Below are positions 2,460 to 26,988 of a stretch of DNA of 26,988 nucleotides, one piece after another. A model generated the notes under the pieces. The model saw only the letters and a list, made by a program, of their open reading frames with translations. It was not told the origin of the DNA and ran no database searches. Each line of letters starts with the position of its first letter. Position 1 is the first letter of the stretch. Both the position numbers and the translations under genes were made by a program. The DNA comes from Thamnocephalis sphaerospora (Eukaryota > Zoopagomycota > Zoopagomycetes > Zoopagales > Sigmoideomycetaceae): the NCBI GenBank assembly GCA_003614735.1, contig KZ992602.1, positions 1-26,988 of the forward strand, given 5' to 3'.

Positions 2460-4061
2460 CTAGAAAAACATGCCCACGTCAAACCACACAATGGCATCGG
2501 GAAGCATACTCACAATTCCTCGATCGGAAACACTGATCGAATCAACAATGTGGCGGTGAGGATTGCTGGAGACTTCATCCTCGTATTCGACATCAAAAGT
2601 GACAATGCGTTTTTGCAGATGCCGCGCCACCCAGAAGCGCTCCAAGGCTGTTCCAATGTATGTCAAGTCGTCGCCAATCTTTGTACTATGAATCACTTGC
2701 TTTGTTGAAAGTGTAGTAACAGACCATTCTGTCTCAGTCGACATAATGACGCGGTCGTTATCGATTGACACAGTTGGCGTTGCTCCAGTAAACTCCTTAG
2801 CGAATTGTATATCGCTCCGCACGGAATGAACGATTATGAATCCATCGCCATTTTTGGCATCACGCCAAATGAGATAGTTGTCACCGGTAAGCTGGCGTGA
2901 CTTCCACTTGGAATTGGGACTTGACACAGAAAACTGCGTACTGAGCGCCTCGGCCTTCTCTGTGCACAAACTAAAAGATGTTACTCGCCACAGTGTCCAG
3001 TTTAGCTGCGTGTTATTTGATGCAGCACCAAATACTCCAGCTGATGTCGCAGTATGGTTAAAACCTCGTCTTGCATTGTTACCTGCTTGAGGTCGATTGC
3101 CGAAAGTGTAGGCTTGAGGCTGTGCAATTGGAGTGCTATCGCCAGAGCCAACATGAGCAGCGTATATGATCGCCTTGTTTTCTCTAAGCTCGTGAATCTT
3201 GTAAGTGTGCCATCCGCTGTATGTTGAGACACATGGCGTTGGCTCTTCTTTGGTAAGGTCATATATGCAAGCTTTTCCTTGACTTGTGATACTCAGGGTG
3301 CGAAGTACCAGCCAATTGGCGCGCAAATCTTCAATCGATTCGATTTCATGCGGCAATTCCAGACAGCCAGAAAATGTAGGGCTTGTAGCATCATCTAGTT
3401 TCCAAAAGTAGCACTTTTGAATTGAACTGGCCAAGATGACAATAAAATGATTGTTGACCGCTGCAGAAAGCTTGTCTGCTGACTGTAGAGTGCTTGCATG
3501 GGTGCCCGGTGCCTTGAGAGATACCAGCTTTGAGCCTTTGTCTTGCAGAGGGCTGTAGTAGATGCATTTGCCAACGCGCACCAGCGTGCCCCATATGCTT
3601 GTTGCCAACATATCAAGCGAGGGCTTTGCGTTTTTTTCGGCGTTAGCTGTGCCGGCGGGATAGCTGCAAATGATACTATGCCCATGTCCACGCTTCCAGT
3701 TGCTCTCAAGCTGCTTGCGGGCGGTGTACCGTCTAAACCAGCTGAGTGGCAAGGATAGTATTGACACCTCCGATATATCGCTGGAGATGTAAGAGCTGAG
3801 CGGCTTTTGGTTGCTTTTTTCTTTGACCCGGACAGTCGCTTTCTCAAACCATTGCAGCCACTCTTGCACAGATACGCTGGTTTCCGGATAGCATAGATCG
3901 AACTGTTGTTTCCAGTATGCATCACTGTCAGCAATGATAAGATAGAATCGCTTGCTAGCACGGGCGACGGCGACACGTCCTGGCGTTGAAAGGCGACTGA
4001 AAATGTTTTGAAGAATCTCTAGCGCGTATGGCTGTCTGTGCCGATGATCTTTGAGCGTCAT
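2460..4061 (-). CDS. F-box protein, copy B
   Basis: Predicted 533-residue, single-exon F-box protein, the longest of the three. The F-box is at residues ~9-50 (P-Y-A-L-E-I-L-Q-N-I-F-S-R-L ... A-S-K-R-F-Y-L-I-I-A-D ... Y-W-K-Q-Q-F). The body aligns along its length with copies A and C, including W-F-R-R-Y-T-A-R-K-Q-L, G-K-C-I-Y-Y-S-P-L and the C-terminal I-V-W-F-D-V-G-M-F-F. It carries an extra ~17 residues rich in N, A, G and T in the loop just before W-T-L-W-R-V-T (DNA about 3000-3110), which explains most of the length difference. Start chosen at ATG 4061 by the conserved upstream context. Likely an SCF substrate receptor; target unknown. Confidence 0.85.
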   Translation of the reverse strand: MTLKDHRHRQPYALEILQNIFSRLSTPGRVAVARASKRFYLIIADSDAYWKQQFDLCYPETSVSVQEWLQWFEKATVRVKEKSNQKPLSSYISSDISEVSILSLPLSWFRRYTARKQLESNWKRGHGHSIICSYPAGTANAEKNAKPSLDMLATSIWGTLVRVGKCIYYSPLQDKGSKLVSLKAPGTHASTLQSADKLSAAVNNHFIVILASSIQKCYFWKLDDATSPTFSGCLELPHEIESIEDLRANWLVLRTLSITSQGKACIYDLTKEEPTPCVSTYSGWHTYKIHELRENKAIIYAAHVGSGDSTPIAQPQAYTFGNRPQAGNNARRGFNHTATSAGVFGAASNNTQLNWTLWRVTSFSLCTEKAEALSTQFSVSSPNSKWKSRQLTGDNYLIWRDAKNGDGFIIVHSVRSDIQFAKEFTGATPTVSIDNDRVIMSTETEWSVTTLSTKQVIHSTKIGDDLTYIGTALERFWVARHLQKRIVTFDVEYEDEVSSNPHRHIVDSISVSDRGIVSMLPDAIVWFDVGMFF

Positions 4062-4692
4062 TGTAGGCAAGTGGCAAACCAAAGGTGGTGATGGCTAGAG
4101 CTGTGCTGCTACGGTAAACGGTAAAAGGCGGGGCGGCGTAGGCGTAGAGGGTAGTTGTATTGCGTAGTCGCATGCTATATCAATGGCAGGCTAGGCCTAT
4201 GCGAAGCACTCGCCTACGTCATATGTAACTGTTTGTAGGTGCTACAAACCCATTGTCCGTGCTGGTCAATGGCGGCCGTGCATGCACAATAGAGAGCACA
4301 GCAGCTAGCGCCACGTCATCCACTATTATGGCAGCCGCCTGTTGGCAGCAATGCTAACACACAGTCAGCACTGCATCCACCAGCAACTCGAGAAGCATAC
4401 TAGTGTCGCATGCGTGATACCCCAGATAGACTGTTATCACCAAGCGGCACCCGTGTTCTGGCCTATTTGAGATGCTCAAAATTGTGTCTCTGATGCAATA
4501 TGCCATATATCCAGCGTGCTACGCCGCCACGCATTCAAGGCGCTCGGCGATATGCTAGTCTCGCGCAACCCCTCGCATTTTACAGATGCTTCTCTGCTGT
4601 TTGCTTTTTCTGTAATGACTGGACAAAACCCATCTCACGCACAATAAACACACTGTTGTGCACGGTAAGAACAGCACGCTACATTCAAAAAA
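4062..4692. other. Spacer of repeat unit B/C, presumed promoter of F-box copy B
   Basis: No gene seen. The first ~110 bp upstream of the start (about 4083-4175) is nearly identical to the sequence upstream of copy C (about 6235-6330), including the GATGGCTAGAGCTGTGC block and TAGTTGTATTGCGTAGTCG-type block. Such conservation right at the promoter fits recent duplication or conversion between B and C. Confidence 0.6.
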
Positions 4693-6216
4693 CTAGAAAA
4701 ACATGCCCACGTCAAACCACACGATGGCATTGGAAAACATGCTTACTATTCCACGATCGAAAACGCTGATCGATGCAATAGCGTTTCGGTAAAAGTTGCT
4801 TGAGAATTCGTCATCGTACTCGACATCAAAAATAGTGACGCCTTTTTTTGTGTTCCGCGCAACCCAAAAGCGTTCAAACGCCGTTCCAATGTACGTCAGG
4901 CCTTCGCCAATCTTCGTCTTATGAGTCAGCTGCCTTGTTGAGAGTGTAGTGACAGACCACTCTGTCTCATTCGACATGATGACACGGTCGTTATTTATCG
5001 ATACGGTTGGTGCTGTTCCGGTGAACTCTTTGGCGAATTGTATGCCTTTGAGCACAGAATGGACGATCATGAACCCGCTATAACTTTTGGCATCGCGCCA
5101 GATGAGATAGCTGTCGTCGGTAAGTTGGCGCGACTTCCATTCGCTGTTGGGTCTCGACACAAAAAACTCTGGGCTGAGTTCCTCGGCCTTTTCTGTGCAC
5201 AAGCTGAAGTGTGTTACTCGCCACAGCGTCCAGCATAACTGCATATTGCCCGACCCTATACTGCTAGCTCTATAAGTCCACTGGTCGTAAGAAATATCTT
5301 GAGGCTGTGTACTTGGAATGTCATCGCGAGAGCCAACATGAGCGGCGTATATGATCGCCTTGCTTCCTCTCAACTCGTGAATCTTGTAAGTGTGCCATCC
5401 ATAGTATGTCGAAACACATGGTGTTGGCTCATCTTTTGTGAGGTCATAAATGTAAGCTTTTCCTCGGTTCATGTTGTCTTTGGTGCGGAATACCAGCCAG
5501 TTGGCGCGCAAATCTTCAATTGATTCAATTTCACCTGGCAATTCTAGACAGTCAGAAAATGTAGGGTTTGCGGTGTCATATAGTCTCCAAAAGTAGCACT
5601 TTTGGCTTGAACTGGCCAAGATGACAATAAACTGATCGTTGATCGCTGCAGAAAGCTTGTCTGCTGAATGTAGAGTGCTTGCATGGGTGTCGGGTGCTTC
5701 GAGGGCCACCAGCTTTGGGCTTTTATCTTGCAGAGGGCTATAGTATATACATTTGCCAACGCGCACCAGCGTGCCCCATATGCTTGCCGTCAACATATTC
5801 AGTGGTGACTTTACACTGTTTTCGGCATCAGTTGCATCGGTAGGGTAGTTGCAAATGAAGCTTTGCCCGCGTCCACGCTTCCAATTGCTCTCCAGCTGCT
5901 TGCGTGCCGTATACCGCCTGAACCAACTTGTACCGTTGGCAGTGTAAGAATTTAGCGAGTGTATGCAGTAGCCCTCTTCCATGTAGTCTACTGTTTCATC
6001 AAACCATTGCAGCCACTCTTTCACGGATACGCTAGTTTCAGAATAGCACAGGTCAAACTGTTGTTTCCAGTATTCATCGTCGTCAGCAATGATAAGATAG
6101 AATCGCTTGCTAGCACATGCAGCAGTGACACGTTCTTGTGCTGAAAGGTCACTAAAAATGGTTTGAAGAATCTCTGATGCGTAGGGCTTCCTGCGCCGGA
6201 AGTATGTGCGCAGCAT
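4693..6216 (-). CDS. F-box protein, copy C
   Basis: Predicted 507-residue, single-exon F-box protein. The F-box is at residues ~9-50 (P-Y-A-S-E-I-L-Q-T-I-F, then A-S-K-R-F-Y-L-I-I-A-D, Y-W-K-Q-Q-F). Compared with A and B it lacks about 11 residues between the F-box region and W-F-R-R-Y-T-A-R-K-Q-L, and it has its own version of the variable loop before W-T-L-W-R-V-T. Sequence identity to A and B switches along the gene: the 5' flank and N-terminal third are closest to B, while the block around K-D-N-M-N-R-G-K-A-Y-I-Y-D-L and the last ~30 residues are closest to A. Start at ATG 6216 in the conserved CCTACAATG context. Likely an SCF substrate receptor; target unknown. Confidence 0.85.
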   Translation of the reverse strand: MLRTYFRRRKPYASEILQTIFSDLSAQERVTAACASKRFYLIIADDDEYWKQQFDLCYSETSVSVKEWLQWFDETVDYMEEGYCIHSLNSYTANGTSWFRRYTARKQLESNWKRGRGQSFICNYPTDATDAENSVKSPLNMLTASIWGTLVRVGKCIYYSPLQDKSPKLVALEAPDTHASTLHSADKLSAAINDQFIVILASSSQKCYFWRLYDTANPTFSDCLELPGEIESIEDLRANWLVFRTKDNMNRGKAYIYDLTKDEPTPCVSTYYGWHTYKIHELRGSKAIIYAAHVGSRDDIPSTQPQDISYDQWTYRASSIGSGNMQLCWTLWRVTHFSLCTEKAEELSPEFFVSRPNSEWKSRQLTDDSYLIWRDAKSYSGFMIVHSVLKGIQFAKEFTGTAPTVSINNDRVIMSNETEWSVTTLSTRQLTHKTKIGEGLTYIGTAFERFWVARNTKKGVTIFDVEYDDEFSSNFYRNAIASISVFDRGIVSMFSNAIVWFDVGMFF

Positions 6217-6735
6217 TGTAGGCAAGCGGTAATCTGGAGGTGGTGATGGCTAGAGCTGTGCGGCTACAGTAAACGGTAAAAGACGGGGCGGCGTCGACGT
6301 AGAGGGCAGTTGTATTGCGTAGTCGTATGCCTTTGTAGAGTGCTCGCCTACGTCACATGTAACTGCTTATGGGTGCTACAAACCCATTGTCTGAGCGGTC
6401 AATGGCGGTCGTGCATGCAGAATAGAGAGCACAATAACCAGCGCCACGTCACCCACCATCATGGCAGCCGTTCGTTGGCAGTAATGCTAACACACAGTCA
6501 GCACTGCATCCATTAATAGTCGGAGAAACGCACCTGCGTCGAATGCATGCTGCTCCAGGAAAACCGCTACCATCAAGCAGTACCCATGTTTGGTCTACTT
6601 GGGATGTTCAAAATTGTGTTTCAGGTACACCGTGTCATGTGTCCATCGCAGCTGGATGGTGCTACACTGCCGAGCCTTCAAGGCGGTCGGCGATGTGGTA
6701 ATCTCACACGGTGGCTCCTCGTATCTTGTAGATGC
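6217..6735. other. 5' flank of F-box copy C, right end of the array
   Basis: Presumed promoter of copy C, homologous to the spacers at 4062-4600 and, more distantly, 1826-2350. Homology fades near 6735, which I take as the right breakpoint of the last duplication. No gene seen. Confidence 0.6.
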
Positions 6736-8764
6736 CGACGATGCTCTTGCCTTGGTCTTGGGCGATCGATGGCCGGTCATCTGGTGTAGTGTGTGTATAT
6801 ATATGGCGCCTCAGAGCGGCAATCGCGCCGAGAACCGTTTGAAACAAGGCTGCTTGCCTCAGCTTGTCGAGTTGGAAATAGAGTGTGCATCCTCTGCGCG
6901 TGCGCATTAATCGTCTTACTCGACTGTTCTGACATCTAATGACGACCGCATACGAAACCTTGCTGCCGATATCCATTTGCGCACTCGCAGATACACGTGG
7001 CCATCGTGTAGATGGGCAGCTCGGCAGACACAAGAGCTGTTCAGTGCTGGTGTGTGTGTGCGGGCCTCAGTGCCCATGAGCTGCTCATCAGACCGGGTAC
7101 GTCACCGTCTACATGAGCAGCACTACCGGTCATTGCTACCTTGAGCAGTCCTTGACTGTCTTCTCGTGGGTCTCCAAAGCACGTAGATGTGCTGAGGGCG
7201 GTGGCATAAAGGGCGGCGGTGCACACGTCGATACTTGTATTGTCCCACCGCATTTGGTGGGCTGCAACAAAGATGGCCGAGGTGGGTTGCCCAGACGAGG
7301 CGCGCCTTGGCCAGTCGGTGCATTCGTGCATGATGGTCGGCACCCCGCTGTTACGATGGTGCGTGCGCAGGCGCAGCTGCTTCCCGCCAGCATGCAAGCG
7401 CACGGCATTGCGTGGCCTCGCCGACGGATGGTAGAGTAGCCGCTCTCACACATGTGCAGCTGCTACGTACGGCATGGCTGCGGTGGCTGCTGATCGAACA
7501 CATGTGGTCCAATGCAGACGTCGTTTGTCGCTCGCTATTTCTGCTGCAATGTATTTGCACACCTGCCACGACCAGTTTAGTGGCCGGCTGCACATCGACG
7601 CTCAAAGCGTACCCGCACACCCATTTGGAACGATGCCGCGCGCCGTCTGGTGCATCGAGTGCTACACATGTGCACCTGTTTGGTTAAAGCCCAGAACCCA
7701 TCGTCAAGAAGCCGACGCCGTTATAGCTTGCTCTTTTCACCGCCTTTATCATTATTGCTTTGCTTTATTTGCGAGACCGATACACGCCGGCCGCTCGTCG
7801 TGGTTCCGCTAATTGATACGCACGTTTTGCACCATCCGAGACGCTGTCTGGCTATTTGTCGGCATTTCGGCGTGCACTGTCCCTTCTTCCTCTTTCGTGT
7901 CTGCTTGCCGTTACGTTTATTGACAGCGGCTGTTTTCAGCGCACACTTCTTGTTTCACCTCAGCGTGCTGAGCTTTGTGCGGATTCGTACGCGCCGCTTG
8001 TTTCTCCTTAATACGTCCGCATACGCTTGTGCGCGGCACAGAGCGCGTAGCCTCCTCTTCTCTCTTGCTCGCTCGCTCCTCGCTCGTCTATCGCGGCTCA
8101 CTCCCTTCACTCGGCCGTCTTGCGTGTGCGCTGGTCCGACACTGACCCGCTGGCACTCTGGAATCTCCCATACATTGGCCACGACACGTTGTGATCTCTA
8201 ATAGCGCCAGCAGCCGTGCCTGCCTACCCTTTGCTCACCTCTTCTCTTCGTTTGTAGCGGTCGCTGAGCGATACGCCATAGGACACCGTTAGGCGCGCCT
8301 GTTGTCTGGCCCATTGCCCATCTGCGCAGTGTGGTCGCCAGAGGCAAGCTTCGCCCGTGTTCAACTTTTTGTGTATTAGCCACACATTGCTTATCCACCG
8401 CTGTTCAGCCGCTGCTGCACCGCATTCTAACCTTGTTCTTGACACCAGTGCGCAGACCCTGACATACATATACGCGCACGTACATCTGCAGACGTACAGA
8501 CCGGTAATGCGTCATTGCTGAGCAACATTCCACTACATTGCCTCGATACGCACTTAGAAGCGCCATTTCATTGGTGGCACGACAGGTGCACTTTCATTAC
8601 GTTCCAGCTACCAGTGCATCTGCGTCACTGCTACAATAGCGCAGCGTCTGGTATTAGCCGTCGGTCATACACCATCTCTGGCCAAACGTGTTTGCAACAA
8701 ACGTAGCGCCAGCAACAGCGGCGATCTACCATCAATTGCTCCAGCTGCTGGATTAGCTTGGACC
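6736..8764. other. 2 kb region without a recognisable gene; leader/promoter of the EGF-type gene
   Basis: Open frames here (for example 7113-7439 and 7650-8201 on +, 7136-7453 on -) have residue compositions rich in C, H, R and S, no recognisable motif, and overlap one another on both strands. I regard them as chance. A short TATATATA run lies near 6797-6804. From about 7730 to 8150 the + strand is pyrimidine-rich, with runs of CTCTTCTCTCTTGCTCGCTC type; this suits a core promoter or long 5' leader for the gene starting at 8765. I found no tRNA-like cloverleaf. A non-coding RNA gene cannot be excluded. Confidence 0.5.
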
Positions 8765-11700
8765 ATGGCGTCCGTGCAGTTTTTACTTTATCACAACCAA
8801 ACGGGGTTCACGCGGCAGAGGGCAGTCGGACGCGAGCCATGCCGCAACCACCGCCTTTTCTCTCTGCTCTGGGCAGTGCTGCTGCTTTGTCTCTTGGCGG
8901 TTTTTTCGTCGCCGGTGGCTGCACAGACGGGCATTAACATGTGCCAGGTGCAGTTGTGTACCTCATCGCCAGGACGTTTTCCTGGATCCTGCGGTGCTGG
9001 TGCACCTGCCACCGCCACGTGCCCATGCCAGGCCGGTTTCACAGGCACCTACTGCCACCAATGTCGCAGCAGCGATATGTACAACCGCGGCAACATCACG
9101 CTCCCAGCCACCATACAGAATCCTTCTCGAGTGCTGTTTTCCAACTGCGAAGCATGCCAATGCAGCACTGAAGGCAGCATAGGAGGCGGCTGCGACGATC
9201 TTACCGGTCAATGCCGCTGCCGGCCTGGCTTCACCGGTGCTCGATGCGAGCGATGCGTTTCTGGCTCAGGTATTTTCCCCAACTGCCAGGCAAACTGTCT
9301 GTGTACACCAGGCGCCACAAGAGAACAAGCGGCTAGCATCTGCCAAGCTCAAGCTAATCTGTTGACTACGGGAGCTAAATGTCAGTGTTTATCTGCAGAC
9401 TGCGCCCAATGCGCCGCTGGCTATTTCCCCGACGACTCTGGCAAGTGTGTCGGCTGTGATTGTGACGCTGTGGGCGCCGCTGGTTGTTCAGCCATGGGCG
9501 GTGCATGCAAATGCCGAGCTGGCTTTGCTGGTGCAAAGTGCAATCAGTGCGCGGAAGGATACTCGGACTATCCCAGCTGCCAAGGTGAGTGATGGATCGC
9601 TAGGGCGGCATGTCGGCATAATTGTCTAACGCTAGCGCTGTATGATGGCGGCAAATTGCAGGTCGTGTTTTTCAGCAAAACATCGCACCGATGGCAGTAG
9701 CGGTCTGCATTGCCTCCTTTAGCATGGTTCTGGTGGCGCTGGCTCGGCGGGCACCGCTTCTTACACACCGCAACGAGCCGCTCATTCGTCTCCTTGCCTT
9801 TGTGGCATTGATCGTAGATGTGGCCTTTGTAGCGCACCTGAGCGAGCCAATGTTCACATCACCTATAGGCCTGAAGGTTGCCGGCAGCCTTGTGCTGGCG
9901 CTGACCACGGTGCTCAACCTGACGCTGGCACTACGCATCATGAACGCGGAGCGCATTGAGCACTTGTCTTTTCAGCTGTGGCTGGAGACAACCCGCACTA
10001 CAACGTCCATGGTAGCCATAGTGGCTGCGTTGGCCGGTGCATCGCAGCTGCTGTTGATCCGCAGTCGCTTGTGTGGTCGGGCGTGCTCCTCTGCGCCAAT
10101 GCACGACAGCACGGTGCAGCGACTGCGCGCGGCTGGTATGCTTGGTATGCTGGTGCGCAGCACTATCATGTGCATCATTGGCATGGTAGCTCTGTCTCAG
10201 CTAGGTCGGGACAAGAGCGACGCGCTGACATTCATCTCTATCGGACTCAACGTGGCGGTGATACTGGTCGCTCTGGTGCTGGATTTTGGAGCACGCAGCT
10301 ACCTGCTGGATGCGCTCACCAGCCGCCGCCGATCGCGTCTTGCCGATCCGACCGGATATTATCCAAGCGGTGACGAAAGCGGCATCTCGGTGGATCCCAA
10401 GTTTGCGGAAATGCGTATGGTCAGCCCGGATATGGAGCGTAGCCTACTGCCAAAGCTGCCGCAGGCTTCCCATCATGCTCGAGTCCGCCAAGGATCTGAT
10501 GCCTCGTTTGTTACCGGCACGAGCGTCAACAGCAGTTTCCAAAGCTTGGGCATATCGCCACACAATGTCGTATTGCCGGCGATACCATCCATGCCGTCTG
10601 TGTCTTTGGAAACGCACACTGAAGGCGAGCTCCTTACCGAAATGCACACGGCGCCTGTACCGGGAACGACGTCAACTGTGCAGCAACATACCCGGACAGG
10701 AAGCGGCAAGGCAAGTTCGACGACACACATGTCTTATTACGGCGAGTATGAGCTAGATGGTAGCCCGCAGGCCAGCTCGCGTGCTTCGCGTGTCTCGCGT
10801 AATTCGCGAAACTCGGCGTATCGGCGCAAGGAGCTGATGAAGCGGGCGGTGAACGATGCCCTCAACATATCACAGCATCCTGTTCCATCTCCAGTCAACC
10901 CCGACAGTCTGCCCAAGCCGCCAACCTATCCGCCTCTGCCCACTGGGTCGCATTCTGAAGCATCCTTGCAACCGGTGCCTCGGCTGTCTACCGACTCGCG
11001 TCCGTCTATTAGCTCGCGTCCGTCCACCGATTCGCGGCGGACTACCGGTAGCTCACGCAAGGGATACCGCAAAAAGATGCACACCACCCGGCTCTCGTCG
11101 GGTACGCTGGCGGTGGCTGCCGCAATTGCTGCTGCCCAGGCGACCAAGGGCTCGACGCTTTCCAAGGCTCCTACGATGACGAGAAAGGCGTCGGCCCAGC
11201 CTGCTGCTCATGATATGTACTACTTTGAGAAGCGAGATCAGGAGATGCAGCAGCAGGCTACAACGGTCCCTGCTGTTACGCCGCAAACGCAAAAGGACGC
11301 AGTGGCATTGCCGGACTTTTCGTTTGAGCTGTCGTCCCCAACTGCAACAGATCAGCCTCGGCGTGTGCCTGACGAGGAGGAGCGGCGGCAGGACTTTATG
11401 CTGCTGCAGGCTCAACTGCATGCACAGATCAATTCCCAAAGTCCGGTCTTATCCATGCCTACATCATCCGGCGTTGCATCCACATCAGGTCAGCAGCAAA
11501 AGGAGCAGCAGAAGGAGCAGCAGAAGAAGCAGCGGCAGCAACAGCTGCAAGAGCTGCAAAGACAGGAGCAGCTGCTTCAGCAGCAACAGGAGCAGTTGCG
11601 CCAGCAGCAAGCACAGCTAAACGAGAAGCAAGAGGCCTACGCACGGCTTCGGCAAGCCAGCCGTCAGCCGCACTATGGCATGGGCGACTGCAGCTTTGGC

Positions 11701-11898
11701 TCCAACACAAGCGGCCACTCGCTCATGTCGTCGGGATTCTTGGATAGCGCGCCATCAGGCGCTGTGTCCAGCCAGCCTAGCAGCGGCCAGGGCACCAATC
11801 TTGCACCGGCCAATCCCAAATCATTCATTCTTGGCGGCGACATGACCGCCTCGCCCATGTTTGCTTATCTGAAAAACTATAGCGAACATGACCTCTGA
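8765..11898 (+). CDS. Laminin-EGF-like / multi-TM membrane protein with Ser- and Gln-rich tail
   Basis: Two exons, 8765-9584 and 9662-11898, give 1,018 residues. The intron (77 nt) has GTGAGT, a GTCTAAC branch site at about 9624-9630 and a GCAG acceptor, and restores the frame exactly. Start ATG sits in ACCATGG. Residues ~31-53 are a hydrophobic signal sequence or anchor. Residues 58-273 are Cys-rich, with laminin-EGF-like modules around C60-C100, C131-C174 and C231-C272 showing the C-x-C-x-x-G-[FY]-x-G-x-x-C-x-x-C pattern, plus an N-I-T glycosylation sequon at 110. About six hydrophobic segments follow at ~284-301, 314-333, 344-364, 388-406, 431-453 and 462-483. The tail (~485-1018) is low-complexity: Ser/Arg repeats (~650-730) and a Gln-rich coiled-coil-like stretch (~882-942). 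The order suggests a surface receptor or adhesion/sensor protein. I know no family with this order; function is inference. Confidence 0.8.
9585..9661 (+). other. Intron of the EGF-like/multi-TM gene (77 nt)
   Basis: Donor AAG|GTGAGT at 9584/9585, branch-like CTAAC at 9626-9630, acceptor TTGCAG ending at 9661; phase 1. It joins the last EGF module directly to the first membrane segment (..S-C-Q-G|R-V-F-Q-Q-N..). A second AG at 9675 would break the frame. Without splicing the upstream frame stops 8 nt into the intron. Confidence 0.85.
11485..11660 (+). repeat. CAG/CAA/GAG-rich low-complexity tract encoding a Q/E/K-rich helix
   Basis: Imperfect repeats of CAGCAG, GAGCAGCAGAAG and similar encode a stretch of mostly Gln with Glu, Lys, Arg and spaced Leu (L-Q-E-L-Q-R-Q-E-Q-L-L). 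The spacing of leucines among glutamines suits a coiled coil rather than pure polyQ. Mixed CAG and CAA codons and interrupting GAG/AAG codons argue against a freshly expanded microsatellite. Confidence 0.8.
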
Positions 11899-12207: not shown

Positions 12208-13315
12208 TTAGACAATTGTAATAGGATCACGGTCAACCTGGCTGCACACCACAGTCGCCTCGGCCAGACCATCCTGCCGCAGCAGGCTCTCCAGCCGACC
12301 CGAAAGCACAGCGCTCAGATAGCCACGCTCCGTGTTGCTATGTTCGCACAGCACCACGCTGGTCTGGCCTTCCACGGCAGCCAGCGTTTCGTGATGGGAC
12401 ATTTCGCCCGTGAGATACACATCAGCGGTGACCGGCGCCAGTACTGAAATGCCCGAGCCGGCGCAGATGGCAATGGTGCGCACAAGCTCAGACTTGTGGC
12501 GGTCGGCCATGGCAAGACGCACTAGCAAACAACATGCGGCAGTACTGTGCGTTAGCAGCCATGCACGCAGCAACAAGCGCACGGACCAAGGTAACGTACG
12601 ATGCGGCAAACGCAAATGAGCCTTGATGCGCTCCACCACGGTGGTAAGCGGCGTAGGCTGGTCCAGGGTAAAGAGACGGCCAGAGCCAGCTCCTTCATGG
12701 CCTACCGCATCAACATGCCCGATCAGCCTAGTAGACACGTCTGTAAACGCAATGCTTGCGACTCACCTTCAGGCGTCTGCTCGCGCGGATTAATCACCTC
12801 TGCATGTCCCGCGCCAAGACCGCTGGCCAGCCAGTCGTTCACTTTGTACATTTGCCGGTTTAGCCATGCTAGTCCTATGCGTCACGTTGACTCGAATACT
12901 CACCGCCATTCAGACAATTGTCCAGCGAAGTGTGTGGCGAAAAGACAGAGACGCCGGCTGCTGCACAGCGTAGCGCGATCGCTTGCTTTGGGTCGGCCAG
13001 CGTGAGCCGTTTGAACGAGCGAAAGAGCGGCGGGTGGTAGGAGACAATAACGCCGACAGCGGGATCAGCCAGCGCCTCAGCCAGCACCGGCGTTGTCAGA
13101 TCGTTGGTCAGAAAGACGCGCGTTGCAGCAGCGCGCGGTGTCGGTGCCTCTGTAGCAGCGGAAAGCGTCGATGCATAAGGTGGGGTCGTGGCTGTGGCAG
13201 GCTATTGCGAGCAGCACGTACCGACGAGCAGACCAACGTTGTCCCAGGCGGTCTCTGCGAGCGAGAGCGGCGCAATGCGCTCCAATGCGCGTACTACCTT
13301 GTCGAGAAGCGTCAT
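12208..13315 (-). CDS. NIF3: NIF3 family protein (dinuclear metal, GTP cyclohydrolase 1 type 2-like fold)
   Basis: Five exons on the minus strand, 13315-13222, 13149-12904, 12841-12767, 12740-12600 and 12521-12208, give 289 residues, close to yeast Nif3 (about 288). Landmarks in order: A-W-D-N-V-G-L-L-V; F-L-T-N-D-L; S-Y-H-P-P (H70); S-P-H-T-S-L-D (D108); V-N-D-W-L-A-x-G-L-G; G-A-G-S-G-R-L; A-I-C-A-G-S-G; D-V-Y-L-T-G-E-M-S-H-H; C-E-H-S-N-T-E-R-G (H246, E250); D-R-D-P at the end. The His, Asp and Glu residues match the family's metal-binding set. The family is conserved in all domains of life; its exact activity is unsettled. The human-type insert in the middle is absent, as in yeast. An in-frame ATG at 13333 would add six residues; 13315 matches the usual family start. 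The third intron would be only 26 nt. Confidence 0.92.
12741..12766 (-). other. Candidate 26-nt intron in NIF3
   Basis: Reading the minus strand, the exon ending C-C-T-G-A-A-G is followed by GTGAGT and, 20 nt later, TTACAG. Removing 26 nt joins ..T-P-E to D-V-S-T-R-L-I-G-H in the frame needed for the following exon. Reading through gives a stop (TGA) within 45 nt, and the other nearby acceptor (CTACTAG at 12728) gives the wrong phase. The other NIF3 introns are 78, 62 and 72 nt. No branch-site motif fits inside. A sequencing or assembly error is the alternative. Confidence 0.55.
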
Positions 13316-13526: not shown

Positions 13527-15737
13527 ATGGCGTCCAACGTTGTCGTCTCCTTTGACCATGGCAGTCGGCGGCAAACGGTCAAAACCACGCCCATGATGCC
13601 GCTCAAGACGATCGTGGCAGCTGTCGTTGAGAAGCAGAGGCTGGGCAGTCCGGACAGCTTTGGACTCAAGTGCGTTCCACGTCGGCTAGCGTGTGGCCAG
13701 TGTGGCCAGTGTGTAGACAGCGTCTAACAACAGCTGCATAGATATGGCAAGAACACGCTGGACATGTCACTGACCATGCGCTTCGCCAATCTTCCTCCTG
13801 GCGCTAAACTGGACCTGATAAAGACCAAAAAGACGGCGGGTAGGTGTCGCCAAGGTATAACAAACGCCTGGACTAGTGCTGATGTACAGGCCATCGCCAA
13901 CGACGGAGTTAGACAACGGACCGGTGACTATTGCGATCCAGTTGGAGGACGGCGGCCGACTGATCCGCAAAGTGCCGTCCAGCACGAGCTTCTGGACCTT
14001 GATAACTCAGCTGGAAGCCGAGTCAAAGGGGTAGGCCGTTTTGCTGCCGATGTTCCGTGCAGGCACCACCGTCACATGCTGATGGGCGCATGTACGTAGG
14101 GCACTGAACCTTACACGGCGCCAAGTGGAGGCACCACCTCCAACGACTGGCATCAGCAAGTGGAAAAAGATGGGCAAAAAGGAGGATGGGCCTACGCCTG
14201 GTCTTTATCTGCAGCCTGTATGCGTGCTGCTGAATCGCGAGGTTAGCAGCCGCCCTGTGCTTGGTATAAGCTGGAAGCTGACGCTTAGCATGATAATGTG
14301 CATGTGGTAGTTTGCTACTATTGCTGCACTGCGCAGCACGACATTGGCCTCGGTTGGTCTCACGTCAGGCAATGCTGTCGTGCGTGTTAGCTTTAGAGTG
14401 AGCGAGCATACTCTGGCAGACACACTGCCAGAACTCGATCAAGAAGCTGCTGCTCCTTTGGCCGATGCATCATCTGCTTTGCCACCTGTTCCACCGCCAG
14501 CTCCTGCCACTGTGACACCTGCGCCCCCTGCAACCCCTGCTGTGGCAGCGGTGGCACCAACCGTGTCGTCGGCTCATGACGCTAGCCTATCCAGCACCAG
14601 TGCTGCTTCATCTCAGGTGGAAAGTGACGTTGCCAAGACGCAAGAGGCGTCCCCAACCAGCACTGTGGTGACGGATAAGGGCAAGGCAAACGCAGAGGAA
14701 CCAGAGGATGTGGTGATGGAGGATACGGAGGCAGCGGCAGCGGCAGCAGCGGCAGAGAACGCACATGTATCAGAAGAGTCTGAGCAGCCTGCTGCATTCC
14801 ATCGCGCACTGCGAGTCTTTAACGCGCCACCGCCAAATATGCCTATGGTGAACCAGAAAAGTAGGTCACCATCGGTTTAACGCGCGATCCTTGATACTCA
14901 CGAGCTAACGTATGGCCACATTTTGTCGCTACGACACTGCAGTTGATCTGCCTGACGCTTTCTTTGAGCTCTCGCCAACGGAACTCAAGACCATGCTGGC
15001 GGTGCAGCATGCAAAGCGCATTGCCGAGGAGAATGCCGGCTTTCGCACACGGGCCATGCGCGCCGCTGAAGAAGCCAAACGCGCGCAAAAGTATCCCAAG
15101 ACCATGCTGCGCATTCGGTTTCCGGATCGCGTTCAGCTGCAGTTGCAATTTCTCTCGCACGAAACCATTGGCGAAGTGCACGATGCGTTGCGCGCACACC
15201 TACGCCACGCTGCACGCCCGTTCCGTCTTTATGTCACGCCACCCCATCGCGACCTGATCGACATGAACGCGCGCTTGATCGATGCCGGCCTCACTCCGGC
15301 CAGCGTGGTACATTTTGCATGGACTAGCACTGGTAAGTTTGTACACATGGGGGATCCGTATAGCACCATGCCCACAACTTGGCTCTCCTTATGCGTAGAC
15401 GATGACCAGCACGATGGCTACCTGTTGGATGAAACGCTGGCCATGGCTGAGAACCTTCCGCTGGTCGAGACCGAGGTGCCGACCGACTTGAAGGAGCGAC
15501 TGTCCGCCGCGGCAGCGTCCTCATCGGTGCCGGCGGCCGACGAGGACAAGGCGCATCGGCAGCATCTTGCCGCATCAGCCAGCGACGCCTCTGCTGGTTC
15601 AGCCGGCGATCAGGGCAGCACAGCAAAGAAGCTGCCAAAGTGGCTGCAATTGGGTAAGCCTGCCGCGCAAGAGGATGCGACTTTTATGACTAGCGCTAAC
15701 ATGCCATCAATGTACTGCTGCGGCAGGCAAGAAATAG
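13527..15737 (+). CDS. TUG/ASPSCR1-Ubx4-like UBX-domain protein (Cdc48/p97 cofactor)
   Basis: Eight exons, 13527-13669, 13742-13843, 13890-14030, 14100-14241, 14311-14860, 14943-15332, 15399-15653 and 15727-15737, give 577 residues. Residues ~1-80 are the TUG N-terminal ubiquitin-like domain (V-V-V-S-F-D-H-G-S-R-R-Q-T-V-K ... L-D-M-S-L-T-M-R-F-A-N-L-P-P-G-A-K-L). A second ubiquitin-like domain follows at ~90-190 (V-T-I-A-I-Q-L-E-D-G-G-R-L ... L-R-S-T-T-L-A-S-V-G-L). An Ala/Pro-rich acidic linker runs to ~355. Then L-P-D-A-F-F-E-L-S, a helical segment, and the UBX domain at ~413-489 with the V-T-P-P-H loop in place of the usual FPR loop, as in TUG. It ends K-L-P-K-W-L-Q-L-G-K-K, the family's C-terminal motif. 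Expected to bind Cdc48/p97. The second intron is ambiguous: 13840-13876 also keeps the frame. Confidence 0.9.
15333..15398 (+). other. In-frame 66-nt intron in the TUG/UBX gene
   Basis: Donor ACTG|GTAAGT and acceptor GCGTAG flank 66 nt that contain no stop codon in frame, so the sequence reads through as coding. I call it an intron because the donor is perfect, the interval lies right at the end of the UBX domain, and skipping it joins W-T-S-T to D-D-D-Q-H-D-G-Y-L-L, which resembles the family's post-UBX Y-L segment. Retention would insert 22 residues harmlessly. Confidence 0.65.
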
Positions 15738-16344
15738 TCGCTAATAAACGGAGCTCGGCTGTATCTTTTCCGCCACGATGGCCATTTCCCGGTGTGCTCG
15801 CTGTACGACCGGTATATCGATCGCCCATGGACTACCGCGGTAAGACACTCGTGGCAGACTGCAAATCGGCTCGTGTGCCTTCTCCATCCGACTCGTCAGG
15901 CCTTGACATGTGAAAGCGCCCAGCCACCGTGCGCAGACTCCTAGCTCATAGCTGCATCAGCACGCGCACCCTTGATATGGTGCGGGCACAGCGATGATGG
16001 TCGTATGGGCCCACAGGCGACCGTAGCTGACCGCAACAAACAGGCATATTTGCATGTCTTTCTCTTCCACGCCACATTGCCACCCCGCACCCACTGCAAA
16101 ACCTTTCACGCTGACTCTTTCACGACGCTTCAACCACAAAACCCACGCGCGCGCGCGTTCACGCCGTTCACCGAACAGGCGACAGCCAGCAGAAACCCGC
16201 ATGGCTGCGCATGTTCCAACGCGGGGCGAATGCTTGGCGTCACAGTCGTCACTGGCGACTGCCAAACGCCGCATACACTCCACTGACTCTCATCCCAGCA
16301 GCCACCGCCGCTACCAGCGCCGCTACGGCGGCTGCGGCTTTGGC
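15738..16344. other. Spacer between TUG/UBX gene and the acidic-tail membrane protein gene
   Basis: AATAAA at 15743-15748, 6 nt after the TUG stop, is a possible poly(A) signal, though very close. Frames continuing the TUG reading frame to 15913 come from not removing its last intron. From about 16050 to 16200 the + strand is C- and CT-rich with a (CG)n run at about 16144-16153, consistent with a promoter/leader for the next gene. That gene's frame is open from 16054, so the true start could lie at 16201 or earlier. Confidence 0.5.
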
Positions 16345-18003: not shown

Positions 18004-19961
18004 TTAAGCGCGTGCCGGTGCATTTGGTGCATTTGGTGCATTCGACGATGGGATAAGCCCACCCTGCCGCCGAAGTAGACCTACAGCAATTGCAATGGCC
18101 ATAAGACAGGATACGATTGCAACGTAAAACACGTCACGGTAGCACTCGCTTCCAATGCAGCGGTCGCCGTCGTCCCAGCTCAACTGCCGGTCATAGAGAG
18201 CGCCGAAAAGCATGGTGAAGATTTGACCGCCAGCTGCAGGCGCCAGCGCCAGCAGTCCCCTATAAACGCAAGCGAGGTTAGTCCAGATACCACATTGTGC
18301 AAGCAAATGCGCTGGCAGCACGTACGTATTGCGGCCCACATGGGCAATGTCCCACAGTTCGCTGGCAATCGTTGGAAGCACGATGCAAATCATGCCAAAT
18401 GCAAAGCCACAAATAGAGGAAGCGACAAGCAGCTGTGGTGCAGTGTCGGATACATAAGTCATGGCTTGTGCGCAGGTCAGCGCAATGGCAGCCAAAACGA
18501 TAAACCAGAGCCGACTGATGCGTGCCGACGTGGCGGTGTAGTCGGACAGAGGACCGGTGACCAAACGACTGAGAAAGTTGGAAAGGCCAAAGACGGCCAC
18601 TTGGGAGGCAGCGACAAATGTCTGCGACTGTTGGTCGCCAGCCAGCTGAAACGCCATGCTACCGATGCTGTTGATGTACATGAGGCAGACGCCAATGAGA
18701 ATACCGGATATCAACCAGAGACACCAGAAAAGCGGGTCGACAAGACGCTCCTTGAGCGACGGTACCGGTGGCCGTGGCACCGATGGCGCGCTAGAGCGTC
18801 GCCGCTGTAGCAAAGGTGAACGCTCACCATTGTAGGAGAGGCGTCGAGGAAAGGAGGAGGATGAGGAGGACGAGGATGGCAGTGGTGGTGGTGGTGGTGG
18901 TGGTGGTGGATACAGCGTGGCACTGGACATGTCGCGCTCCAAGACTGGTGCCAGCGAGGGCGAAAAAGATGTACGGTCACCGCTGCAGGAAAGGCGCTGA
19001 GAAGTGGGCATAGGCGGATACAGCGTGGCGCTGGACATGTCTCGTTCCACGGCTGGTGCCAGGATGGGCGACGCTTCAGGTGAGCCGGTTGGCGTAGCAT
19101 CCCTGCTGCTTGATGGAGGCGAGTGCGTAGAGGTGCTGGCATAGCTAGGAGGACGTTGGCTGCTGCTGGAAAGTGCCTTTTGCACACGTACACCTAGCAG
19201 TGGTGCCGACTTTTGCCGGTGGATACTGGCTGCTGCTGCTAGTCGTGCCAGCGCGCCTGCTTCGTCCTCGCTTTGCATGGCCCATTCGGGCTGGCAGGCC
19301 GAGGCCACGTTCACAATGCCACAGAACAGGGCCATACAGAAAAGAAACTCGCTAGTGGCTGTGCGTTCCTCAGGCAGCTGGTGCGCAGGCGTGGAAAACC
19401 AGAACATGCTGCTCAAAGCGCATATCAACGGTGCCAGACCCATAAAGCTAAGCGCCAGGCTGAAGACGGCGCCGCGACTTGACCAAGGAAAGCGCCGCAC
19501 CATCAAGGTGGCGGCAACCGTGCAGGCCGACGTTGCGCCGACGCCGATCAATGCAGAAAACAGCGCTGCTAGCCACGGGGATGTCGTGAGCAGCTGGCCT
19601 TCCATCAATAGCGCAAAGCCGGCGTAGCCTGTGGTGAGTAGCACAGCAGCGGCAATCCAGGCCCTTTGAAAGGTTCGTTAGCGTGGCACAGCAGACGATA
19701 ACGTGGTCGTCTGCTGCACACTCACTTGCGGGGGCCATGTCGAACGTACGCATCCACCATGGGCGCACTAAGATAGTGGCCAACGCTGGCAGCGGCGGCA
19801 ATGGAGGCAAGTTCCAGGTGTGAATAGCCCAGGACCTGGGCCATTTGAGGGCCAAAGAGGGAAAACGTATACTGTGTGCCGGCCGTTAACATCGTAAACG
19901 TCGCAGAAAGCAACGTGATGAGCAGTGCCGGCTGGGCACGAATCGCATTCAAAAGAGACAT
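18004..19961 (-). CDS. MFS transporter, NFD4/Mch1-like, copy 1
   Basis: Three exons, 19961-19726, 19663-18326 and 18259-18004, give 609 residues. The N-terminal half begins with TM1 and the family motif Y-T-F-S-L-F-G-P-Q, then Y-S-x-L-E-L and G-P-R at the first loop. Six helices are followed by a ~185-residue Ser/Pro-rich loop, TM7 with M-Y-I-N-S-I-G, further helices, then F-G-A-L-Y-D and C-I-G-S-E-C-Y-R before the last helix. It is closest to the nodulin-like/NFD4 and yeast Mch1 group of MFS proteins. Substrate unknown; a vacuolar or other endomembrane location is inferred from E-R-S-P-L-L in the loop, which fits the E-x-x-x-L-L sorting pattern. Both introns are phase 2. First gene of the tandem minus-strand array. 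Confidence 0.88.
18260..18325 (-). other. In-frame 66-nt intron in MFS copy 1
   Basis: On the minus strand: donor AAT AC|GTACGT, branch-site GACTAAC, acceptor TTTATAG. The 66 nt contain no stop, so a simple reading frame runs through them and adds 22 residues that break the transporter alignment. Splicing joins G-R-N-T to G-L-L-A-L-A-P, matching the spliced junction G-R-N-I / G-L-I-G-W-A in copy 4, with the same phase. Confidence 0.8.
18842..19065 (-). repeat. Simple repeats and 108-bp tandem duplication in the loop of MFS copy 1
   Basis: A GGT run at about 18882-18909 (encoding nine prolines on the minus strand) and GGA/GAG-rich DNA at about 18850-18877 (encoding eight serines). Next to them, a block starting GGATACAGCGTGGC occurs at 18908 and again at 19016, a 108-bp (36-codon) period. 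It encodes V-E-R-D-M-S-S-A-T-L-Y-P-P and L-E-R-D-M-S-S-A-T-L-Y-P-P. The duplication stays in frame. Confidence 0.85.
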
Positions 19962-21511: not shown

Positions 21512-23297
21512 CTAGTTGACGCCAATGCGCTGGTAAAATTGCGGCGGGTGTGCGTGTCGGTACCACAGCACTAGCAAAAGGAGCAAAGCGACCAGACAGG
21601 CGCTTCCGGTAAAAGGAAAGATGAAGCGGTAGCATGGGCCACCCATGCAGCGTTCCGCTTGGTCGTAAGCGTCTACCCACAGGCCAAACAGCATGATGAA
21701 CCACGGTGCGCCAACAGACGGTGCAAGCACAAGCCAGCGGCTGTAAAAGAAAAGCAAGCACTCAGGTTAGCATCGGTGGTCCAGTGGACACAGTATGGCA
21801 TGTACTTACTTTTTGGCATCCTGCAGTGTGTTGCGCCACTCGGTAACGTCATTGCCGCTTAGAACGTCAAAAGGCAATACAACGCAGATGCTGCCGTATG
21901 CCAAGCCGCTAGCAGCAGCTACCACCAGAAGCTGGTGCGGTGTTGTGGCCAGATAGCCGCAGATTTGTACAACCAGTAGCAGAACGGCGGCAGCAACGAG
22001 TACTCGCAGCTGACGTTGCCGAACAGACACAGCAAAGATGCGATCGAGCAGCAGGCTCAGAGTTACATGCGCTATGCTCATGGACACGCCAAACACCACC
22101 ACCTGCATGCTAGTGTCGCGTTCACGCCGTCCATTCGTAGCATCCAGTGCAGAGTGGGCGCCAATCAGGTGAACCATGCTGCCGGCGGTGTTGATGTAGC
22201 CGAGTGCTACGCCGGCAAGTAAAGCAGTGGCCGCCCAGAGACCGCCGTCGTCAAAGCCGCCGAGAATACCTTGGTCGCTAGCGGATATCTCGCGCAGCAT
22301 AGCTAGATCAGGCGTGCGCGGCCGCGACGGGTACAGCATTGGCGAGTGGTCTGGGCCAATGGCACCATAGTTGCGTCCAGCACGGAGCGGCGGCGACGCC
22401 GTGCCCGAGAACGGGCTGGCGTAGACGCCCTTTGGTGCACGCATCGTGCGCTCATCAATGTCCGGGATGGAGAGTGTATGTGGCAGAGGTAGCGCAAGAA
22501 GCGGCGGCGACGGCATGAGCGTGGGCGTACGCAAGAATGGCGAAGCAGCTGCACTGCCCGCGTAGGGAGACGGAGCAGGTGAATGTACACGGCGAAACTG
22601 TGGTAGCAGCATCGGCAGCAGGCAGGCGATGCTGCCCACCAACGCGAGGATAGCCAGATAGGCGCCTGTACCGCTGGACCTGCCAGCATCGGAGCGGTGA
22701 TCCAGATGAGCCAGCCGCACCAATGCCCAGATACACACTAGCAAGCCCAGTGTAGCTGCCAGCAGGCGGCTCAGAGTGTGCAGTCCGGCGATGGCCATGC
22801 GACGCTGTGCCGTGGCCGTAACAGCGCTACGGACAATGGCACTGCCGGCGCCTGCCATTGCCGCCAGTGCCGCAGTGAGCATAAACGACAGGGCAGGCAG
22901 GTATCCCTCGTGGAGAGCAGCTAGGCCAGCAAAGCCCAGTAGAGTAAGGGTAGCGGCTAGTGCGCACATGCTGTATAGTGCGCGTGCAAGCAGACGGAAA
23001 GCGCGATTCGTTCCCTGATTAGCATGTGACGATTCTATGCTGCCGTCTCTGCACCTACCTGCGTGGGCTACGGCGAACCAGCTGCCGAGCGAATGCAGTC
23101 GCTAGCGCGTGGCCGGCCACAGCAGCCGAGGCCACCACTGAAAGTTCCAGCTGCGAGTAGTTTAGACGTGCAGCCAGTTGTGGACCGTAGAGAGAAAAGG
23201 TATAGAAAGTACTGGCGCCCAAAAATAGCAACATGACGCCGCCAGCCAGCTGGAGGAGCATGAAGGGCTGTGCGTGCAGCGTAAGCAGCAGCATCAT
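21512..23297 (-). CDS. MFS transporter, NFD4/Mch1-like, copy 2
   Basis: Three exons, 23297-23059, 22970-21810 and 21740-21512, give 542 residues. It has the family start (F-Y-T-F-S-L-Y-G-P-Q-L-A, Y-S-Q-L-E-L, S-P-R at the first loop), a Pro/Ser-rich central loop of ~120 residues containing R-N-Y-G-A-I-G, TM7 with G-Y-I-N-T-A-G, and C-M-G-G-P-C-Y-R near the end. Intron 1 (88 nt; branch GCTAATC) interrupts right after the S-P-R motif and intron 2 (69 nt; branch GCTAACC, long pyrimidine tract, TTTACAG) lies before the last two helices; both are phase 2 and at the same places as in copy 1. Copy 2 has about six extra residues before intron 2. The start is in ACCATGATG. Substrate unknown. Confidence 0.87.
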
Positions 23298-24211: not shown

Positions 24212-25790
24212 CTACGCGTGGTGCCTAGTGCCGCGCCGGAAGGTCAGGTGCGTCCCCAAGGCCAGCATGCCAAGAGTGCATCCGGCGGCCGTTATAAGAA
24301 ATGCGTTGCGGTAGCATTGGCTTCCGATACAGCCACCAGGAAGGCTGCGGCGTGCGTCAAAAAGCGCGCCAAACATACTGCCCAGCGCCGTTGTAACCGC
24401 CGTTATTCCCCAAAACATCAGGCCCCAGTTGCGGGCAAACTGGCTGCTGCCCCAGCGCTCGTTGGTAATGGCAGGCGCCAGCGTGGCGGCGCTGCCTAGC
24501 CCAACTCCCACCATTGCTGATACTGCAACCAGTGTAAGCGGATCTTGGACGCTGTAGGCCAGTAGCTGTGCGGAAATAAGCCATATGGCCGTTGCCAAGA
24601 GCAGCCAGCAGCGGTTCAGTTGATGGCTACGCATCAAGTAGTCGGAAATAAAGCCTACTAGCAGGCGTGTTGTTGCATTGGTTGCACCAATGGTTGCCAC
24701 ATGTATGCCAATTGCATGCTGAAGCTGCGCGCTATCAGGCGGCGGTGTGTCTGGCTGTTTTTCCAACGATCCGTTGTAGAGTAGCTGCACGATTGTTCCA
24801 ACGTTCGCAATGTACATTTGGCAACTTCCATTCAGTAAACTACCGGCTATAATGAGGCCAGAATAGCTAGTGTCCCGGAGGAGTTCCCGTAGAGTGAGAT
24901 TGCCCGCGCTGTTGGATGCCGTTGTGTCGTGCTCACGGTGCTCTGATGTTACGGTGGCCGACAACGGAGTATTATCATTATCGCTATCACTATCGCTACC
25001 ATAAATGTAATCCTGTTGGGCCGTTGCAGCGCCTACTAGCGGCGTACGTTCCGTTGCAGCGATGTTGACGTCCAAATGGTCATCCGCGTGCATATCTGTG
25101 GCGACAGAGGCACGATCGATTGGCAAACGCTGCATCCATGCGGATGCGATGACGTTGCCGCACGCACACACTATAGCCAGGAAAACGAGATAATGGTGTG
25201 TGCTATCTCTGTCAACGCTACTACCAACAAATAGCGTACTCTGCAGTAGAGAAAGCACCAGTCCGGAAAGAGCAAACAGGCTGAGCAGTATGCCAATGGC
25301 AGTGCCCTGCTGATGACGTGGCCAGTTGGACGCATTGGTACGGAGAGTGACCATGTATCCGGAGAAAGATCCAGCGCCCACAAGAAGAAAGCAGAATGCT
25401 GCCAATAAATACGAGTCGGTGAGCAGCTGTCCTGCGTAGATGGCAGCTAGGCCTTGATATCCGAAAAACAGCAAAACTGCGGCAAGTATACACCAGCTAT
25501 GGCACCACCAGCACATTAGATGTGCTATGACATAGCAATACAAGCGCTTACGCTACACACCGACGTGGCCCTGTTTGATCTATGAAATGGCCCAAGAACG
25601 GACTCGCCAGTGACAGACCAATGCTTCCCGAGGCAGCTACCACATTGATTTGAAGCTGGGTGTAGCCGCGCCGCTCGGCCAATTGTGGTCCAAACAGTGG
25701 GAACGCATACATGGTGCCGCACACTAGCATCGTCAACATACCGCAGAGCAGCGCTACGAAGCGCCGCCGCTTCCAAACTAGTCCATCCAT
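24212..25790 (-). CDS. MFS transporter, NFD4/Mch1-like, copy 3
   Basis: Two exons, 25790-25561 and 25496-24212, give 504 residues. Motifs: M-Y-A-F-P-L-F-G-P-Q-L-A, G-Y-T-Q-L-Q, G-P-R at the first loop; TM7 region C-Q-M-Y-I-A-N-V-G; F-G-A-L-F-D and C-I-G-S-Q-C-Y-R before the last helix. The central loop is short (~90 residues) and acidic, with E-R-T-P-L-V and a D-S-D-S-D-N run, unlike the Pro/Ser-rich loops of copies 1 and 2. The single intron (64 nt, branch-like TCTAAT, phase 2) is at the same place as intron 1 in the paralogues. The second family intron is absent here: the matching position is continuous (A-R-N-W-G-L-M). ATG 25790 chosen as the first ATG in frame. Substrate unknown. Confidence 0.87.
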
Positions 25791-26229: not shown

Positions 26230-26988
26230 TTAGGCAGCTACGAGGTGTTCCATCATATCCCGACGGCGCCGCAAGCAATAAAGCAGCAGGGCGAGGGCAA
26301 TGCCAATTGCGCACGTACATGCGCTGAGCGGAAAAACGTCGCGATAACACTCGCGACCCATACATCCACCTGCTTGCCCTTCACGCATATCGTATATAAC
26401 TCCAAAAAGCGAGCCAAAGATCTGGCTGCCGAAAGCAACGGCCCAGCCGATGAGGCCGCTGTGGGACAAGCAGAGGCATATGAGCAAATGATATGATGCG
26501 CAATTACAGTCTACAACCTACATATTACGGCCGCAGTTCTCGGTGCCCCAGTAGTCGCTGACAACGACAGAGTTGAGGGTGAACACAATGCCAGATGCAA
26601 AGCCAGAGAGAAACGTAACCGGCAACAGCTCTTCCAGCGTTTCGGCATAGTAGCCGCCCACCTGAGCGATGCCCTGTAGTGCTGCTGCGACTGTGAAAAA
26701 GTGGATGCGCTCAATGTTTGCCTTGCGCTTGGCATAATCGGACGCGTAGCCGACCAAGAGGCCTGCAATGCAGCTGGAGAAGCTGAGCACCGAGACGTGC
26801 AGCGTAATGTGGTCGTCGAGCCCGCTGCTGATGACGCCGCTCGCGCCGCGCACGCCCGGCCATAGTTGCTGTACCAGAAGGCCAATGTTATTGACGTACA
26901 TCAGATCGACGCCCGTAACAAGACCAGCGGCAATCCAGAAACACCAGAATTCGGCATCGGTGAGAATGGCGCGGAGCGACGTGTCACG
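26230..26988 (-). CDS. MFS transporter, NFD4/Mch1-like, copy 4 (5' part beyond window)
   Basis: Two visible exons, 26988-26522 and 26458-26230, give the last 231 residues; the frame is open at the window edge. It begins just before TM7 with R-D-T-S-L-R, has M-Y-V-N-N-I-G in TM7, then helices with G-Y-A-S-D-Y, F-L-S-G-F-A-S-G, and F-G-V-I-Y-D and C-M-G-R-E-C-Y-R before the final helix and an Arg-rich tail. The intron (63 nt, GTAGGT..CCACAG, phase 2) joins G-R-N to I-G-L-I-G-W-A, the same place and phase as the last intron of copy 1. It is the upstream-most member seen of the minus-strand tandem array. Confidence 0.88.

Follow-up and report, generated by a model that had tools for sequence, protein, structure and literature searches.

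We analyzed a stretch of 26,988 nucleotides from the fungus Thamnocephalis sphaerospora (assembly GCA_003614735.1, contig KZ992602.1, forward strand), hereafter the window. The window is the whole of contig C179 in a genome of 14,455,036 bases on 594 contigs. Our subject was the gene at 8765–11898, whose predicted product (1018 amino acids, one intron; hereafter the window protein) places laminin-type EGF (LE) modules in front of a multi-pass membrane core and a long tail. We compared it throughout with P0001, a hypothetical protein of 1034 amino acids on a 6,384-bp JGI contig. The gene contains the following features.

8765..9584, + strand: exon 1, with the N-terminal region, signal sequence and four LE modules (open frame and splice model)
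8855..8911, + strand: hydrophobic core of the signal sequence, residues 31–49 (Kyte-Doolittle peak 2.48)
8942..9148, + strand: LE module 1, residues 60–128, with a long last loop (eight-cysteine spacing and conservation)
9155..9286, + strand: LE module 2, residues 131–174, canonical (best Pfam EGF_laminin stretch, 131–177; 37.5 bits in the genome search)
9296..9448, + strand: LE module 3, residues 178–228, irregular in spacing (eight-cysteine spacing; all eight cysteines common to P0001)
9455..9580, + strand: LE module 4, residues 231–272, canonical (34.8 bits in the genome search; eight-cysteine spacing)
9585..9661, + strand: intron of 77 nt, GTGAGT...CTAAC (9626)...CAG
9662..11898, + strand: exon 2, with the membrane core and the tail (the TGA ends at 11898)
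9682..10284, + strand: membrane core, six hydrophobic segments (residues 281–301, 313–333, 345–365, 386–406, 431–451 and 461–481)
11065..11142, + strand: conserved tail motif YRKKMHTTRLSSGTLAVAAAIAAAQA, residues 742–767 (block 736–775 is 62% identical to P0001)
11389..11442, + strand: conserved tail piece QDxxLLQAxLHAxINxQS (invariant columns; helix 849–870 in the P0001 model, at low confidence)
11497..11658, + strand: glutamine-rich coiled coil, residues 886–939 (block 841–950 is 47% identical to P0001)
11674..11703, + strand: YGMGDxSFGS motif past the coil (invariant columns)

The ATG lies at 8765 and an upstream in-frame stop at 8555, and translation continued past the end of exon 1 into the intron met an in-frame TGA at once. 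One spliced gene with a single intron at 9585–9661 had been proposed in the original prediction, and this was borne out to the exact coordinates and by the in-frame stop on read-through. A match to a similar intron pattern (GTAAGT...CTAAC...CAG, 97 nt) occurs elsewhere in the genome, in the gap between two pieces of a G-alpha gene. The position of the intron, between the EGF part and the membrane part, had also been taken to fit a fusion of two older pieces; it is compatible with a fusion, but does not show one.

We searched for homologs with residues 1–500 against 5.77 billion proteins, scoring the 7,995 candidates that shared most words. Only two proteins came back at an E of 10 or less. One was P0001, with E 3.7e-129 and 46% identity over 89%; the other was a laminin gamma-3, with E 0.61. 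P0001 was collinear with the window protein from the signal sequence to the C-terminus, with identities of 52–59% in the EGF modules, 36% in the core and 36% at the C-terminus. The same domain order thus occurs in P0001. Judged from these two sequences, the architecture of EGF rod, membrane core and tail is real and kept in both, and because P0001 keeps the same domain order, the window protein appears to be a real receptor-like protein. The comparison shows only that the order of EGF part and membrane core is older than the split of the two proteins. Within our genome, P0001 as query found the gene at 8765–11898 alone, in three pieces, and the core as query found itself alone. Homolog searches with the core alone and with the exon 2 alignment returned nothing. 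They missed even P0001, although its length lay within the range searched, and therefore have no bearing on absence. Among the GTDB genomes, the P0001 query gave 51 pattern matches, none of which was confirmed, and in IMG/VR it gave no match.

A signal sequence had been predicted, and the hydrophobic stretch at residues 31–49 is indeed followed by PVAA/Q; cleavage before Q54 is likely, with VMA/Q in P0001. The Pfam family EGF_laminin (PF00053) matched exon 1 in three stretches (E 8.5e-18; 64.7 bits, cut-off 21). Cysteine spacing defined four eight-cysteine modules that use all 32 cysteines of the ectodomain, every one of them common to P0001 (32/32). The laminin type of the modules, as previously stated, therefore stood, whereas their number rose from about three to four. 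A sequon for N-glycosylation, N110, lies in the long last loop of module 1 and is matched by N106 in P0001, and eight residues separate the end of module 4 from the first membrane segment. Among 12 matches to solved structures, the best relative by sequence was laminin beta-2 (E 1.5e-14). EGF_TEN on exon 1 reached 16.3 bits, short of its cut-off of 65. One other laminin-EGF match in the genome (C37:7893–7952) was judged to be chance: it covers 20 positions, scores 24.4 bits (above the cut-off), contains one TGA and runs antisense to an open frame of 423 amino acids. Genome scans for Kringle and plain EGF (PF00008) gave zero matches, but control genomes were equally silent, making these scans uninformative.

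The tail comprises residues 485–1018, or 534 amino acids, and the commonest residues of 501–1018 are serine, glutamine, alanine, proline and threonine. Identity to P0001 was 22% over residues 485–735 and 20% after the first tail motif, so that the tail consists of short conserved elements within fast-changing sequence. A genome search with the first motif, whose consensus is YRKKxHTxxLSSxxLAVAAAIAAAQA, recovered no second copy (E up to 10). In the AlphaFold model of P0001, the coil is the one confident part (helix 907–963, with ten-residue means of 87–93 over 911–960), and most of the rest of the tail is without predicted structure. A coiled coil in the tail is accordingly predicted with good confidence. 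A low-complexity tail of more than 500 residues with a glutamine-rich coil near its end had been described from the sequence, and both its length and the coil modelled in P0001 agreed with that description.

Hydropathy revealed one N-terminal segment and six in the core, and six core segments were likewise found in P0001, which matches the earlier count of about six (segment ends were placed by hand from hydropathy peaks). AlphaFold models of low confidence contain six core helices in both proteins, with a predicted local distance difference test (pLDDT) value of 45.8 for the window protein and 40.0 for P0001. It had been argued that six segments and an outside N-terminal part would put the tail outside, and this holds with the signal cleaved or not. 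One of the remedies then offered, an uncleaved N-terminal anchor, fails by simple reasoning: only crossings between the EGF rod and the tail count, so an uncleaved anchor does not alter the parity between them and leaves the side of the tail unchanged.

We counted lysine plus arginine (K+R) per loop, given here as window protein, P0001. The counts were 3, 2 in loop 1; 0, 0 in loop 2; 2, 2 in loop 3; 5, 4 in loop 4; and 2, 2 in loop 5. In the 30 residues past segment six, K+R was 5, 4 and aspartate plus glutamate was 3, 4. The counts in loops 1 and 2 fit an outside location of the EGF part, and K+R past segment six leans to an inside tail. Loop 4 and the stretch past segment six resemble cytoplasmic sequence, as they would if a crossing had been overlooked between loops 2 and 4, or if there were one fewer there. 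A homemade topology score, which is to be read as a hint only, gave 37.2, 38.3 and 34.2 for five, six and seven crossings of the window protein when started outside, and 39.5, 43.2 and 44.2 for P0001. The solution with seven crossings splits the long fourth stretch in two. Started inside, the score for six crossings was 37.3 (window protein) and 42.8 (P0001), and it therefore hardly tells the orientation. The crossings between EGF rod and tail may number five, six or seven.

No family claimed the core. Zero Pfam families reached their cut-off on it; neither it nor P0001 matched 7tm_3 (PF00003) at E up to 10 with HMMER filters on; NCBIfam gave zero families above cut-off; and sequence searches of the PDB found no credible relative of the core (best E 0.65 and 0.16). 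Pfam gave no match to GPS/GAIN, 7tm_2 or cadherin, whether the two exons were scanned at E up to 1 or the core and P0001 at E up to 10, and RGS had none in exon 2 or P0001. Two weak family matches disagreed between the proteins and were both judged to be chance, namely DUF2975 on the core of the window protein only (E 0.0041, 17.5 against 27 bits) and DUF6040 on P0001 (E 0.079). Structure prediction followed by a Foldseek search had been suggested for the core. Six helices were modelled, but at low confidence, and the 358 Foldseek matches (best E 0.31) mixed GPCRs, BAR domains and channels; with a model pLDDT of 45.8, neither these matches nor a VIA-align run on the same model were used as evidence of fold. 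The earlier statement that no family with this domain order was known holds in so far as none in Pfam or NCBIfam covers the whole order. For receptors of this general type it went too far, because EGF-like ectodomains are described on class C receptors of gut fungi (PMC5168858) and of relatives of animals (PMC12716839).

A genome scan found four 7tm_3-like places, one of them above cut-off, and the core was not among the four. By hmmscan, none of the four open frames exceeded the 7tm_3 cut-off, and two had an RGS match, one above cut-off. We compared the core with these four class C-like proteins by hhalign profile comparison and obtained a score of 26.3 (probability 5.7%) over 44 columns spanning transmembrane segment 1 (TM1), the loop and TM2. 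All 200 block shuffles scored lower (200/200, maximum 24.5), as did all nine slices of three MFS-type frames (9/9, maximum 19.3). In an earlier run with 30 shuffles, the top score listed was 18.5 and the reversed core scored 13.6, and another build of the comparison gave 25.6 (probability 4.3%) over 35 columns. Among themselves, the four class C-like proteins scored 74–143 in leave-one-out comparisons. We regard the resemblance to class C-like seven-transmembrane (7TM) proteins over TM1-loop-TM2 as a weak lead, not as membership. The four frames lack a large ectodomain (L007, 325–2418, − strand, C58; L008, 583–1872, − strand, C30; L009, 1423–3126, + strand, C363; L010, 1483–3327, + strand, C534), and are possibly a small set of receptors of 7TM-RGS type. 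Two G-alpha places lie about 9 kb apart on C35, at 32067–33116 (− strand) and 42259–43435 (+ strand). One is broken into four pieces, a pattern that short introns could produce, and the other has two TAA in the matched stretch.

The most likely reading, which we hold at somewhat less than even confidence, is that this single gene encodes a surface or wall sensor resembling G protein-coupled receptors (GPCRs). We counted in favor of a GPCR-like receptor the G-alpha matches and class C-like 7TM proteins in the genome, together with the TM1-loop-TM2 score. Surface location, an inside tail, sensing and signalling are what we infer from the features above. The four LE modules would form a short, rigid, disulphide-bonded rod sitting directly on the membrane, where it could make contact with the wall of the cell or with some foreign surface. 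With a joint of about eight residues between rod and bundle, binding or pulling could shift the first helix. The bundle, in which six segments are apparent and the long fourth stretch perhaps conceals a seventh crossing, would then pass the signal to the cytoplasmic tail, which may gather partners through its coiled coil and conserved short motifs. The protein may represent an undescribed family of fungal surface receptors that combines a laminin-EGF rod, a membrane core of its own kind and a conserved coiled-coil tail, and that uses a module of animal-matrix type for surface sensing; we advance this idea as tentatively as the first. A fungus enclosed in a wall must sense that wall or the surface of another cell by some means, and such a protein, with its rod, bundle and docking-type tail motifs, would be a concrete candidate.

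Under a narrower form of this explanation, the protein would be a fungal class C GPCR (glutamate-type, 7tm_3) that has diverged and exchanged its ligand-binding domain for LE modules. EGF-like domains occur on fungal class C receptors (PMC5168858), EGF domains on those of other opisthokonts (PMC12716839), and the pattern RR(A/K)PxLxxRNxPLIRL across TM1, intracellular loop 1 and TM2 resembles the RR...R of the four 7tm_3-like proteins. The missing 7tm_3 match, the hhalign probabilities over just 44 and 35 columns and the lack of a clear seventh segment past the sixth make this form doubtful. Slightly less probable still is a protein of the cell wall or of adhesion that is anchored by six membrane passes and lacks G-protein signalling, and whose tail lies on the EGF side or is merely a cytoskeletal tether. 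Six crossings scored best for the window protein and six helices appear in both models, which would place rod and tail on one face of the membrane; the length and low complexity of the tail, and its coil, also suit such a protein. The K+R counts in loop 4 and past segment six conflict with an outside tail, however, and by eye the tail sequons do not line up between the window protein and P0001. An EGF-stalked subunit of a TRP- or polycystin-like channel or mechanosensor with six segments is improbable. Two adjacent genes, or a wrong splice model, we consider very improbable: each exon is an open frame alone, but the splice and branch sites look canonical, and P0001 (known from protein alone) is one predicted protein with both halves that keeps the CQGR...QN residues across the junction. 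Because P0001 is collinear, continuous across the intron point and equipped with the same 32 cysteines and tail motifs, it strongly argues against two unrelated genes.

Elsewhere in the window, three tandem and visibly related frames on the − strand (275–1834, 2460–4082 and 4693–6225) each had an F-box-like match above cut-off. Their GC content is 46–48%, against 54–62% in five measured frames between 12208 and 25543. Downstream of the gene, 12208–12738 (− strand) matches the C-terminal part of DUF34/NIF3, and 14912–15913 (+ strand) is a UBX-domain frame. A transporter-like row on the − strand follows (18004–19644, 21806–22969, 24212–25543 and 26518–26988), in which the first and third frames matched MFS_1 above cut-off and the second and fourth are alike by eye only. 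Scans for bacterial promoters and terminators and for tRNAs gave nothing of use. The genome also contains a Chitin_synth_1N domain (106.7 bits), which is a fungal family and was our ground for treating the genome as that of a fungus.

The class C receptors described in gut fungi number about 100; a solute-binding fold is present in almost half, a pectin-lyase fold in about 30% and an EGF-like domain in a few of them (PMC5168858). EGF domains also occur on class C receptors of several opisthokonts, including relatives of animals (PMC12716839). For glutamate-type receptors of fungi, the domains found at the N-terminus have been listed, and no EGF domain is named in the section consulted (PMC3251606). 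Seventeen classes of fungal receptors are listed, with no laminin-type EGF class named in the parts consulted (PMC12842992, PMC13308352), and most fungal GPCRs are orphan receptors (PMC13308352). Our literature search met no laminin-type EGF receptor in fungi, and no entry that it listed named the window protein. Fungal receptors that carry an EGF-like domain are thus already known, whereas the combination of laminin-type rod, unassigned core and such a tail was not met in the sources searched. The gut-fungal class C GPCRs are likewise fungal, with an extracellular part that may hold an EGF-like domain and with a membrane bundle (PMC5168858, in the part consulted). In contrast to their recognised class C 7TM region, the window protein has a core of no recognised family, and only laminin-type EGF modules make up its ectodomain.

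Fungal class VI 7TM-RGS receptors, relatives of which seem to be present in this genome, share the weak TM1-loop-TM2 resemblance, but the window protein differs from them in its EGF ectodomain and in having no RGS match. Animal laminins and netrins have in common with it the eight-cysteine laminin-type EGF modules, whereas the window protein has no other laminin domain in Pfam and is predicted to be membrane-embedded. Flamingo/CELSR adhesion GPCRs combine laminin-type EGF with several membrane helices; the window protein, unlike these, has no match to cadherin, GAIN/GPS or 7tm_2. The window protein bears on whether EGF-type ectodomains joined membrane bundles more than once in opisthokonts.
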